Under the pieces are notes generated by a model. That model saw nothing but the letters and a program-made list of their open reading frames with translations. It was not told where the DNA came from and searched no databases. The position numbers and the translations under genes were made by a program. Positions 12,874 to 17,364 of a stretch of DNA of 64,000 nt are shown piece by piece (the stretch's first letter is position 1; each line of letters starts with the position of its first letter). Source of the DNA: an uncultured Clostridia bacterium (GTDB taxonomy: Bacteria; Bacillota; Clostridia; Oscillospirales; CAG-382); assembly GCA_944375955.1 (NCBI GenBank), contig CALWBE010000005.1:1-64000 (forward strand), written 5' to 3'.

Positions 12874-12909
12874 GCAGATTCATTGTCGTAATTGGTAAAT
12901 GTTTATTTA

Positions 12910-12938
12910 TTGACAGGCTTTAATTTTGATAGTATAAT
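12910..12938 (+). promoter_or_regulatory. Sigma-A promoter of manA
   Basis: A consensus TTGACA (12910-12915) and consensus TATAAT (12933-12938) are 17 bases apart, 31 bases before the manA ATG. This is one of the best promoters in the window. Confidence 0.88.
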
Positions 12939-12969
12939 TAATAAAAAATTTATCCTACGGAGGGAAAAA

Positions 12970-13899
12970 ATGTATCCGCTGAAATTAAAATCTGTTCTTA
13001 AAGATATTATATGGGGCGGCACTGCTTTGTCGGAAAAATACGGCAAAGGAACAGCAGGACAAAAAATCGCTGAAGCATGGGTGCTTTCATGCCGCGCAGA
13101 CGGTGAAAATATAATTGAAAACGGCGACCTTGCCGGAAAACCTCTCAGCATTATATATAAAGATAAAAACGCATTTCCTCTTTTGATAAAACTTATTGAT
13201 GCTCATGATAAGCTTTCAGTGCAGGTTCATCCAAATGATGAATATGCAAAAAAGGAAGGTTTGCCTGCCGGGAAAACAGAAATGTGGTATATTCTTGATG
13301 CTAAACCCGGTGCAAAGCTTGTTTACGGCTTAAAAAAAGATATTGACCTTTCTAATGATAACTTGAAGTTGGCAGCAAAAAACGGAACCTTAGAACAGTA
13401 TCTGAACTTCCGTGAGGTAAAAAAAGGTGACGTACTTTTTATTCCTTCAGGACTTGTACACGCTATCGGCGATGGAATACTAATCGCTGAAGTGCAGCAA
13501 AACTCAAATACGACATACAGGATATATGACTACGGTCGAAAGGACGCGAATGGAAAATGCAGAGAGCTGCATATCGACAAAGCGGCAGAAGTTATTGACC
13601 GCAGTCTCCCGGTATCCGACACCTCGGTTTGCATTACCGAAAAATCCGATGCTGTTTTGCGTGAGACTCTGTGTTCCTGCGACTGTTTTACTGTTGAAAA
13701 ATTGAATTTAAACAGATATGAATACGAAATTTCTTCAGATAAAATGCTTTTTGCTCTCTGTACCGAAGGCTGCGGAGAGTTCTCACATGAAGGGAGCCGT
13801 TATAAATTTGTTAAAGGCGACGGATATCTTTTCCCCGCCGGGATAGGCAAGTTTTCCATAATTTCCGACGAATGCGAACTTCTTTTTGCATATAAATAA
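12970..13899 (+). CDS. manA: Mannose-6-phosphate isomerase, class I
   Basis: This 309-residue cupin enzyme interconverts mannose 6-phosphate and fructose 6-phosphate. The start at 12970 is chosen because of the ribosome site ggaggg; an upstream in-frame ATG would overlap the promoter. Zinc-ligand motifs are visible: LSVQVHPND with both Gln and His, the glutamate in KTEMWYIL, and the His in IPSGLVHAIG. Active-site residues follow in EVQQNSNTTYRIYDYGR. Length fits the short Firmicutes ManA. It is monocistronic, flanked by its own promoter and terminator. Confidence 0.95.
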   Translation: MYPLKLKSVLKDIIWGGTALSEKYGKGTAGQKIAEAWVLSCRADGENIIENGDLAGKPLSIIYKDKNAFPLLIKLIDAHDKLSVQVHPNDEYAKKEGLPAGKTEMWYILDAKPGAKLVYGLKKDIDLSNDNLKLAAKNGTLEQYLNFREVKKGDVLFIPSGLVHAIGDGILIAEVQQNSNTTYRIYDYGRKDANGKCRELHIDKAAEVIDRSLPVSDTSVCITEKSDAVLRETLCSCDCFTVEKLNLNRYEYEISSDKMLFALCTEGCGEFSHEGSRYKFVKGDGYLFPAGIGKFSIISDECELLFAYK

Positions 13900-13944
13900 T
13901 TTATAACTAATAAAATTATTTTCGATAAAATTCTAAAACGTAAG

Positions 13945-13984
13945 AGAAAAGCCGCGGCAGTATTTATCCTGCCGCGGCTTTTCT
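13945..13984. terminator. Bidirectional intrinsic terminator
   Basis: A GC-rich 16-base inverted repeat, AGAAAAGCCGCGGCAG and its complement, has an eight-base loop. It lies between the convergent manA and sipL-like genes, with A-tracts and T-tracts on the flanks that serve both. Confidence 0.88.
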
Positions 13985-13997
13985 CCGCCGTACCCTC

Positions 13998-15548
13998 TTA
14001 ATGCAGTATTACCGCTTTCTTGCCGTCAAAAAATTCACCTTCTATGCCGTTTTCCGCACGCAGCCGTTCGCATGAAACAAAGTGATCCTTTGCAACTTTC
14101 CATACACTCTCGCCTGCCTGAGGATAATAAAGCGTAAATCCGCTCTTTCTGCAGCTTTTGCCTCCTTCGCATTTTGAATATCCACTGATTATTTCTATAT
14201 TTTCTTCATTAAGCGCCGCGCAGTTTTCATTTACCCACAGCCTTAAAACAAGTTCTCCGCTTATAAGCTCGCATTCATACCTACACACCGACGACAGATT
14301 ATACCAGCGCAGTTTATTTCCGGAAAGCGAATAGGGTATATTTTCTGCTGGTATCTTTATATTTACCACAGATGTCTGAGATTCTATTTCTCCGTTTTCT
14401 TTCATTCCCAAAACTGACAAAAGTCCGCGTGCCGGAATAAATACATATCCTTCGGAAAACTCAGGATTTCCGAAAGACATCCTAAGCGACGACGATACGA
14501 TATCCGTTATCCCTCTCAGCTCAAACTTTATCCTATCAGCAAACTCAAGAATACCGGTGAAAGCATCCGCAAGAGACAAAACTCTGATATTCTTTCTTTC
14601 AGGTTCTATACAGCATTCGGTTGAATATATGTCCGTAAATATCGTGCACTCTTCATTCTTAAACGCCATTGCAGTAATATCTATACCCGCACCGACATTT
14701 ATCAGCTTCTGCTCTCCGAAATTATCAGATGTACTGTCGGCAGACAGAGACATAAGATTTGCTTCTGCAATAATCTTCCATGAGCTGTCTGTTCCCGGAA
14801 TATCTATTTCTGTTTTAAATGGGATTGCTTTCTCCATACTCACATATTCTGATGTTTCTCCTGTCTTTGATTCATAAAGGCAGTGGAAAGTAAGCTCGCC
14901 GGAAATATCAGCAATTCCGTCAGAATGACTTATAGACTTTATACATACTGATGCTTCTGCAGATACTATATCCGATATTTCAGGCATATCGTCATCAACT
15001 TTTATATCTTCGGATATATTGTATGGGTTATCCTCGGATATTCTTGCCGACGCATTCATTATGTCTTTTCTTAAATATTCTATTTCGCAGTCTGGAGTCT
15101 CATCGCTGTCACGGCAATATGTATCCTGTGAGATATCAATAACTTCACAGGAAAGCATAAACTTTGAGCGTGAACATATCTTTCTCTGTGCAGAAAGCTT
15201 CGACGATGCAGACGGCGGAACAGTACGAACAAGCACATATAAATTTTCCAAATCTCTTTCGGCTGGGATAGGAAAATCAAATGATTTTGAAAAATCGTCC
15301 TTAAAAACTACGCACTTCAGCAAACCGCTGTTTTCAGATACATACAGAACCGTGTATACTATCTCACCGTATATCGTCACGCCGTCGTGTTCCACTGACT
15401 TGTCAAGAATTTTAACTCTCGCTTCAGTTTTTACAATTCTCTGAATATTCGGCATATATTCGGAAAGCGAGTATTCCGTTTCGTTCTCTATCTCGCATTT
15501 GTCGGAGTAAACAGTCTCAAAGGGGCAAATTTTAGTATTGATCTCCAT
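13998..15548 (-). CDS. SipL-like spore coat morphogenesis protein (DUF3794 + LysM)
   Basis: This 516-residue protein has repeated DUF3794 (SPOCS) modules over residues 1-460, each with segments such as VYGEIVYTVLYVSE or ISGELTFHCLYES. A C-terminal LysM-like domain follows (about 470-516: YYPQAGESVWKVAKDHFVSCERLRAENGI). This architecture matches SipL of Clostridioides difficile, which uses its LysM domain to bind the coat ATPase SpoIVA. The next gene downstream of its promoter region is a spoVM-like micro-ORF, which fits a coat-assembly role. Whether it is the SipL orthologue or a paralogous DUF3794 protein is unsettled. Confidence 0.8.
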   Translation of the reverse strand: MEINTKICPFETVYSDKCEIENETEYSLSEYMPNIQRIVKTEARVKILDKSVEHDGVTIYGEIVYTVLYVSENSGLLKCVVFKDDFSKSFDFPIPAERDLENLYVLVRTVPPSASSKLSAQRKICSRSKFMLSCEVIDISQDTYCRDSDETPDCEIEYLRKDIMNASARISEDNPYNISEDIKVDDDMPEISDIVSAEASVCIKSISHSDGIADISGELTFHCLYESKTGETSEYVSMEKAIPFKTEIDIPGTDSSWKIIAEANLMSLSADSTSDNFGEQKLINVGAGIDITAMAFKNEECTIFTDIYSTECCIEPERKNIRVLSLADAFTGILEFADRIKFELRGITDIVSSSLRMSFGNPEFSEGYVFIPARGLLSVLGMKENGEIESQTSVVNIKIPAENIPYSLSGNKLRWYNLSSVCRYECELISGELVLRLWVNENCAALNEENIEIISGYSKCEGGKSCRKSGFTLYYPQAGESVWKVAKDHFVSCERLRAENGIEGEFFDGKKAVILH

Positions 15549-15606: not shown

Positions 15607-15690
15607 TTACTTTTTTCCGTTTTTATTTTTTACAAAAGCCGAAAGAATTTTCCTAAAAAGACCGTTAGGCTGAAACACAACTATTTTCAT
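15607..15690 (-). CDS. SpoVM-like spore morphogenesis micropeptide
   Basis: A 27-codon ORF starts with ATG at 15690, preceded by a perfect AGGAGG ribosome site at 15706-15701 with ten bases of spacing, and ends at TAA 15609-15607. The product begins MKIVVFQPNGLFRKILSAF and ends in a basic tail. That matches the SpoVM pattern: 26 or so residues, MKxxxI/V start, a helix-disturbing Pro/Gly at positions 8-10, and an amphipathic basic helix that binds the curved forespore membrane and recruits SpoIVA. It sits just upstream of the sipL-like gene, whose product family also binds SpoIVA. The call rests on pattern and context only. Confidence 0.65.
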   Translation of the reverse strand: MKIVVFQPNGLFRKILSAFVKNKNGKK

Positions 15691-15704
15691 AATCAAAAAG
15701 CCTC

Positions 15705-15851
15705 CTACTTTGAAAAATACAAAAAACCGACTAATATCAGCAGCACAGCCTCAAGGCAAACCATCACTATCGGCGGCAAAAAGCATGCCAGCAATACCAT
15801 TACCCCGGCAGCCATGATACATATACCTATAAGCTTTGAGTTCTTTTTCAT
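15705..15851 (-). CDS. Small hydrophobic membrane protein
   Basis: A 48-residue ORF starts at ATG 15851, preceded by the ribosome site gaggag. It is almost entirely two membrane segments (about 7-24 and 26-45) with the short charged N-terminus MKKNSK. Its stop overlaps the ribosome site of the spoVM-like ORF, so the two are probably co-transcribed. The family is not recognised. Similar small proteins are common near sporulation genes, but no function can be assigned. Confidence 0.6.
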   Translation of the reverse strand: MKKNSKLIGICIMAAGVMVLLACFLPPIVMVCLEAVLLILVGFLYFSK

Positions 15852-15968
15852 GAATGCTCCTCGCTTATTCGTTTTATACTTTATTTTATGCAAAATACTC
15901 TGAAATGACAACAAAAGTCAAATATAAAATAACAAAAAAACCTGCATTTTACAGGTAAAACAAAATTT

Positions 15969-16038: not shown

Positions 16039-17364
16039 TTATTTCCAATCGAGATTTTTTAAAAGCCTTCTCAAAAATACTGTTGCAAGAATAACCGACA
16101 TTATCTCGGCAGCCGGAAATGACAGCCATACAAATTCGATTTTTCCGGTAAGCGACATTAAGAACGCAAAAGGAATAAGAACGACAAGCTGCCTTCCGAG
16201 TGAAAGGAACAAGCTGTAAATACTTTTTCCAAGAGCCTGGAAAACAGATGACGCCACTATGCTGAATCCTGCAAAAATAAAGCTTAAGCTTATTATGCGC
16301 AGCGCTACTGTTCCTATATCAAGCATCGCCTTTGACGGCTCGAATATTTTGAGAAGCTTATCAGGAAATACCTGACACAATAAAAGTCCTAACAGCATTA
16401 TTGCCACCGCGTAAATTACTGCATATTTTATTGTGCTGTGCATTCTTTCTTTGCGGCGTGCACCATAGTTATAAGCTACTATCGGTATCATTCCGTTATT
16501 TAATCCGAATACCGGCATAAATACAAAACTCTGTAGTTTAAAATACGCTCCGAAAACCGCTACCGCAGTTGTTGAGAATCCCATAAGTATTTTATTCATG
16601 CAAAGCGTCATTACTGAACCTATTGACGCCATAAGTATTGAAGGCACACCTATAAAAAGAATATCTTTTATTTCAAGAAAATTAGGAGCAAGATTTGATA
16701 ACTTTATACGCAGTTCTTTATTATATTTTATATTAAGCACAAGTCCCAGAAGCCCCGCAACTGTCTGGCCTATGACCGTTGCATATGCAGCTCCTGCAAC
16801 TTCAAGTCTCGGAGCACCATATAGACCGAGGATCAATATTGGGTCGAGAATTATATTTATAACCGCGCCTACTCCCTGAACGATCATACTTAAAACAGTT
16901 CTGCCTGTTGCCTGAAGCATTTTTTCAAAAGTAAGCTCAAGAAAAAGGCCAAAAGACATCGCAAGACATATCTCAAAATACTGCTTACCGTATTCTAATA
17001 TTATATTGCTGTCTGTCTGCGTTCTCATAAAAAGAGTCGGCATTGATACTCCTACGATAAAAAAGATAACAAAGCTTATCAAATTAAGCAAAAGTCCCTG
17101 CATCGCAAGCTTATCCGCTCTTTTATAGTTCTGCTGTCCCAGTGATTTTGAAATCAGCGCGTTCATACCTACGCCGACCCCCACACCGACCGCTATCATG
17201 AGATTCTGTATTGGGAAGACTAATGATACTGCCGTAAATGCGTCCTCAGATATCTGAGATACGAAAATACTGTCTACAATATTGTAAAGAGCCTGCACAA
17301 GCATCGATATCATCATAGGAATAGACATTGATAATAGCAGCTTGTTTACAGGCATAGTTCCCAT
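16039..17364 (-). CDS. MATE family multidrug exporter
   Basis: This 441-residue protein has twelve hydrophobic segments and the two-fold repeat of the MATE family. The N-terminal half starts with PVNKLLLSMSIPMMISMLVQALYNIVDSIFVS, and the second half contains the matching Asn/Pro-rich GLNNGMIPIVAYNYGA. It would exchange cations for drugs or metabolites at the cytoplasmic membrane. It is probably monocistronic; the flanking metallopeptidase ORF lies 115 bases upstream. The substrate cannot be inferred. Confidence 0.93.
   Translation of the reverse strand: MGTMPVNKLLLSMSIPMMISMLVQALYNIVDSIFVSQISEDAFTAVSLVFPIQNLMIAVGVGVGVGMNALISKSLGQQNYKRADKLAMQGLLLNLISFVIFFIVGVSMPTLFMRTQTDSNIILEYGKQYFEICLAMSFGLFLELTFEKMLQATGRTVLSMIVQGVGAVINIILDPILILGLYGAPRLEVAGAAYATVIGQTVAGLLGLVLNIKYNKELRIKLSNLAPNFLEIKDILFIGVPSILMASIGSVMTLCMNKILMGFSTTAVAVFGAYFKLQSFVFMPVFGLNNGMIPIVAYNYGARRKERMHSTIKYAVIYAVAIMLLGLLLCQVFPDKLLKIFEPSKAMLDIGTVALRIISLSFIFAGFSIVASSVFQALGKSIYSLFLSLGRQLVVLIPFAFLMSLTGKIEFVWLSFPAAEIMSVILATVFLRRLLKNLDWK

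Follow-up and report, generated by a model that had tools for sequence, protein, structure and literature searches.

RESULTS

A short conserved ORF lies between a membrane-protein gene and a sipL-like gene

The window, i.e. the whole 64,000-nt stretch of DNA analysed here, carries on its minus strand a cluster of three genes, in which a 27-residue spoVM-like ORF is encoded between a two-helix membrane-protein gene and a sipL-like gene. The features of the locus are as follows.

13943 to 13986, minus strand: intrinsic-terminator-like hairpin after sipL at the cluster end, with an 18-pair stem and a T tail
13998 to 15548, minus strand: sipL-like gene, 516 aa, with SPOCS (PF12673) domains and a C-terminal LysM-like region
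15607 to 15690, minus strand: putative spoVM ORF, 27 codons plus stop; peptide MKIVVFQPNGLFRKILSAFVKNKNGKK
15701 to 15706, minus strand: AGGAGG ribosome-binding site of spoVM, read from the sequence, overlapping the end of the upstream membrane-protein gene
15705 to 15851 (15708 to 15851 without the stop), minus strand: two-helix membrane-protein gene, 48 codons plus stop; MKKNSKLIGICIMAAGVMVLLACFLPPIVMVCLEAVLLILVGFLYFSK
15882 to 15889 (approximate), minus strand: candidate -10 element CATAAAAT of a mother-cell sigma-E/sigma-K type promoter, predicted from the sequence
15940 to 15956, minus strand: small terminator-like hairpin between a MATE gene and the cluster, with a weak consensus match

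The ORF starts with ATG at 15690 and ends with TAA at 15609-15607 on the minus strand, and a TTG two codons 5′ of the ATG is a possible alternative start. An earlier note on this DNA had described a short ORF at 15607-15690 with a perfect AGGAGG site, and both were confirmed, the motif being separated from the ATG by a 10-nt spacer; AGGAGG was found at the equivalent position in only 2 of the 360 ATG ORFs of 20–35 codons in the window. Peptide searching retrieved copies with 74%, 70% and 61% identity in three same-genus genomes, each with the same sipL-like gene immediately 3′ of the spoVM copy. Four other peptide matches (L006, L007, L008 and L010), low-scoring and located inside other genes or across stops, were dropped. 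A genus-level SipL alignment scan placed among the genus mates the MAGs SIG695 and SIG660 (Oscillospiraceae bacterium) and RGIG7446 (water buffalo colon). In 14 close pairs of relatives, the changes in spoVM at codon positions 1, 2 and 3 numbered 49, 27 and 135, respectively, a third-position excess as expected for a protein under purifying selection. The 27-residue ORF is a real coding sequence.

The ORF resembles canonical SpoVM

SpoVM is a tiny protein by which the spore coat is anchored. A canonical test profile was constructed from 27 rpmB-linked SpoVMs, leaving out the window and its relatives as well as L154, a false-positive ‘SpoVM’ match. With this profile, the window ORF ranked first of 1369 short window ORFs (E = 1.8e-4, the next being 0.75). 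The NCBI SpoVM model NF033436, its sole NCBIfam match, yielded 10.6 bits, below the 31-bit cut-off, so that the label ‘overlooked’ given to this ORF is plausible; the cut-off itself is a detection threshold and not a biological property. Among 26 sipL-linked relatives, 21 matched NF033436 at E ≤1 (best 4e-10). Profile searching of the PDB gave no match. An iterated profile run over 5139 short ORFs from the relatives’ sipL loci separated members (E of about 0.002 or lower) from chance matches (0.84) by a clean gap; at E ≤0.01, 164 of the 391 class genomes contained a match. The rpmB neighbourhood is the canonical spoVM site (PMC5607322), and in other orders SpoVM matches were located ≤300 nt from rpmB in 27 of 48 loci examined. 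The match to the canonical profile, together with the conservation of the ORF and the NF033436 matches of its relatives, supports the SpoVM identity.

The window peptide shares with the SpoVMs of Bacillus subtilis and Clostridioides difficile, and with NF033436, its length (27 aa versus about 26 residues of the known SpoVM), an N-terminal MKIVV-x-(K/Q)-P block and a putative C-terminal basic amphipathic helix; as in both species, it is present along with SpoIVA and in a sporulation context. It differs from NF033436 in scoring below the cut-off, in having Pro8-Asn9 in place of Pro9, and in lying beside sipL rather than rpmB. Its helix has a hydrophobic moment of 0.49 versus a family median of 0.56, and 7.8% of shuffles reach this value, so is only moderately special. 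Based on the sequence comparisons, the window ORF is very probably spoVM, in the form of a diverged member.

By searching its own genome with NF033436, no match was obtained, not even to the window ORF itself, and the purpose-built SpoVM profile found no spoVM besides the window ORF in this 94%-complete genome. Nor does a spoVM occur at the rpmB locus of the genome, which is flanked by hprK-like and ftsZ genes (named by eye from the translations). SpoIVA (E = 1.4e-116) and Spo0A (Spo0A_C, E = 3.2e-46) are both encoded, so the genome has key sporulation genes. There is thus no second detectable spoVM in the 94%-complete genome. The earlier note had called the ORF SpoVM-like and held that a clear spoVM elsewhere in the genome, with no conservation of this ORF, would speak against it; no other spoVM was detectable and the ORF is conserved, which along with the canonical-profile match and the NF033436 matches of the relatives supports the claim.

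Pro9 is common but not universal in SpoVM

Pro9 has been reported as the only invariant residue of SpoVM and essential for curvature sensing (PMC5607322). The window SpoVM has P8-N9, and its genus mates have P8-A9 or P8-G9. In family f23, no proline was found at position 8 or 9 in the four distinct SpoVM sequences read (L043, L106, L111 and L113), and several rpmB-linked SpoVMs are likewise without Pro9 (L119, L122, L123, L148 and L156). Its absence in several rpmB-linked SpoVMs means that Pro9 is common but not universal, so does not define the family. The homologues at L119 and L156 have no proline at either position 8 or position 9. Such natural variants without Pro9 provide material for curvature-sensing studies.

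A two-helix membrane-protein gene precedes spoVM across Clostridia

The two-helix membrane-protein gene, a third cluster member that the earlier note had missed, is located directly 5′ of spoVM in the window, with a 14-nt gap. Of 914 ORFs, the window copy scored best against a profile of 17 rpmB-linked homologues (E = 9e-11, 48-aa form). Homologues stand 5′ of spoVM whether the locus is linked to sipL, to rpmB or to neither. A two-TM ORF was found directly upstream in 72 of 94 spoVM loci versus 11 of 411 control gene starts. Joining a genome-wide search with alignment A4 of the membrane protein to a separate genome-wide spoVM search, we found the membrane gene directly 5′ of spoVM on the same strand in 77 of 77 genomes having both among the matches listed, with gaps of 14–307 nt; some of these loci supplied profile sequences, and co-location was not built in, as both searches scan whole genomes.

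In alignment A4 (26 sequences), Pro26 between the helices is invariant and Gly42 near-invariant. AlphaFold2 predicted a helical hairpin (residues 2–24 and 27–47, pLDDT 86.9). No Pfam or NCBIfam match was obtained for the window protein, its relatives having scattered weak matches only. Of the 391 class genomes, 142 had a member of the family at E ≤1e-3; in a phylum-wide sample of 249 genomes, it was detected in 9 beside the window’s own at E ≤1e-4. The family is concentrated in Clostridia. Members directly 5′ of spoVM across Clostridia (the window and loci L043–L208) are two-helix proteins of 45–58 aa. What is new here is this conserved, unnamed partner gene of spoVM, a larger result than the diverged SpoVM itself.

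According to Ribis et al. (2017), C. difficile CD25622 encodes a 50-aa product without known function, is conserved primarily in Peptostreptococcaceae and is cotranscribed with spoVM, which lies 3′ of it (PMC5607322). From its published size and position, CD25622 is probably a member of the class-wide hairpin family: both are proteins of about 50 residues encoded directly 5′ of spoVM, whereas the published range of CD25622 is primarily the Peptostreptococcaceae and the hairpin family is class-wide and can adjoin sipL in the window’s order. A CD25622 insertion, polar on spoVM, resembled a spoVM mutant, and spoVM is largely dispensable in C. difficile (PMC5607322), so that in this species the hairpin protein may be of little consequence.

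A candidate mother-cell type -10 element is enriched upstream of the hairpin genes

In the window, about 30 nt separate CATAAAATA from the start codon of the membrane-protein gene downstream. Upstream of the hairpin genes, CATANNNTA was found in 26 of 71 cases versus a mean of 3.8 and a maximum of 11 in 300 shuffles. The literal sigma-E pattern ATA-N15-18-CATANNNT was not enriched, occurring in 1 of 72 hairpin-gene upstream regions, so that only the -10-like part is enriched.

A MATE-family efflux transporter gene (16039-17364, minus strand) is encoded upstream of the cluster, and likewise in two genus mates (L089 and L090); the terminator-like hairpin between the MATE gene and the cluster suggests a separate transcription unit. 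At the other end, a class I mannose-6-phosphate isomerase gene (12892-13899, plus strand) is convergent with sipL, a strong terminator-like hairpin being common to both.

spoVM is frequently placed 5′ of sipL in the window’s order

The neighbour of spoVM had been called sipL-like in the earlier note, and its product matched PF12673 with an E value of 1.8e-19 (70.2 bits versus the 23.6 cut-off), bearing this out. A weak, sub-threshold LysM match lies at residues 477–502 (14.0 bits versus 20.9, E = 0.05), where Trp483 is invariant in alignment A2. Compared with C. difficile SipL (CD3567), the protein has a similar size and the same SPOCS domains plus C-terminal LysM-like region; the differences are its sub-threshold LysM match and its location next to spoVM, for which rpmB rather than sipL is the reported neighbour in C. 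difficile. Apparent second SipLs in L059 and probably in L108 were artefacts, the SipL HMM having been contaminated by a kinase ORF from L059.

In the window’s order, spoVM was located directly 5′ of sipL in 42 of the 91 genomes with both genes located, adjacency being counted with PF12673 by joining genome-wide searches. The linked cases, 30 co-oriented and 12 divergent, are distributed over 13 of 23 families, and all 42 are on the 5′ side of sipL; hence the adjacency that the earlier note had pointed to is a real and recurrent arrangement. About half of the order’s genomes have spoVM not linked to sipL, and the loci of this order that were read showed no rpmB (L28) close to spoVM; at 20 non-linked loci, spoVM lies at neither rpmB nor sipL. 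In family f25 (L104, L107, L108, L110 and L112), spoVM likewise adjoins neither gene. In this order, spoVM is away from the rpmB site and frequently beside sipL, a placement of which no description was found in the papers searched.

We infer that the cluster may work as a coat-assembly unit. A tentative alternative, to be taken seriously while being the less probable of the two, is that the gene is spoVM and its adjacency to sipL is functionally meaningless, the hairpin-spoVM pair moving as a unit and having reached sipL by rearrangement; this would fit the location of the pair, which adjoins rpmB in other orders and also occupies additional, unclassified sites in the window’s order. However, the invariable 5′ placement in two orientations and 13 families suggests retention or repeated formation, and in C. 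difficile SpoIVA is the protein through which both SpoVM and SipL act.

Far less probable is that the ORF encodes a short amphipathic peptide other than SpoVM, either one that targets membranes or a leader by which sipL is regulated. Its NF033436 score far under the cut-off and its missing Pro9 agree with such a peptide, and the location just 5′ of sipL would fit a leader, but no window ORF scores better against the profile of rpmB-linked SpoVMs, SpoVM is preceded by this partner gene at rpmB loci too, and the 12 genomes of the order in which spoVM is divergent from sipL rule out a leader role there. That this is a chance ORF with a good ribosome-binding site, as its very small size and the 2-in-360 occurrence of AGGAGG might allow, is refuted by the conservation in genus and order, and also runs against the third-position bias and the profile match, so is hardly credible.

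The partner gene as a signpost to distant SpoVMs

Among the matches listed, 20 genomes had the membrane gene without spoVM, and in 14 of them a SpoVM-like ORF was found right after the membrane gene, such as the diverged MKIVAIKLPKFLSSFIKFIFRKS in L172. Family f45 (L169, L170 and L209–L223) behaved differently from these: the membrane gene adjoins rpmB in all 17 loci read, no SpoVM-like ORF follows it in any of the 17, and SpoIVA is present in 7 of 7 genomes tested. This pattern suggests that spoVM was apparently lost in f45 with the partner kept, the latter seeming able to outlast SpoVM, unless a strongly diverged copy of SpoVM is encoded at another site. At L188 (genome G371, window’s order), sipL immediately follows the membrane gene and the space between them holds no SpoVM-like ORF, spoVM having apparently been lost from the three-gene cluster.

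Whether clostridia in which no SpoVM is detected nonetheless encode a distant version was a question that Galperin et al. (2012) did not settle (PMC3533761). The upstream membrane gene and sipL serve as signposts to distant SpoVMs, and so bear on this question.

DISCUSSION

SpoVM recognises positive curvature and recruits SpoIVA (PMC5607322, PMC6436350, PMC12004969). In C. difficile, SpoVM binds SpoIVA and spoVM is sigma-E dependent (PMC5607322), the LysM of SipL binds SpoIVA (PMC6436350), and sigma-E controls spoIVA, sipL and spoVM (PMC5607322, PMC6436350, PMC12004969). By reference to these findings, the locus is most likely a small mother-cell operon of a membrane hairpin protein, spoVM and sipL. 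During sporulation, a sigma-E/K-type promoter would transcribe the three genes together in the mother cell. Synthesis of the 48-residue hairpin protein would shortly precede that of SpoVM, in the same membrane. SpoVM would enter the outer forespore membrane, which is convex, in the form of an amphipathic helix and would there capture the SpoIVA ATPase encoded elsewhere; SipL would bind SpoIVA via its C-terminal LysM region and drive encasement. The hairpin protein, at a guess, might be a membrane partner placing or stabilising SpoVM, or else a partly redundant anchor. That it assists the placement or stability of SpoVM at the forespore, or acts as its substitute there, is, in our judgement, an even bet.

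Equally balanced, in our estimation, is the broader proposal that the hairpin protein is a clostridia-wide, undescribed spore basement-layer component, working with SpoVM and able to outlive it. If true, its persistence after spoVM loss would help to explain the dispensability of SpoVM in C. difficile. Altogether, the results draw attention to a family of small proteins, hitherto uncharacterised, that is linked with coat assembly throughout Clostridia.
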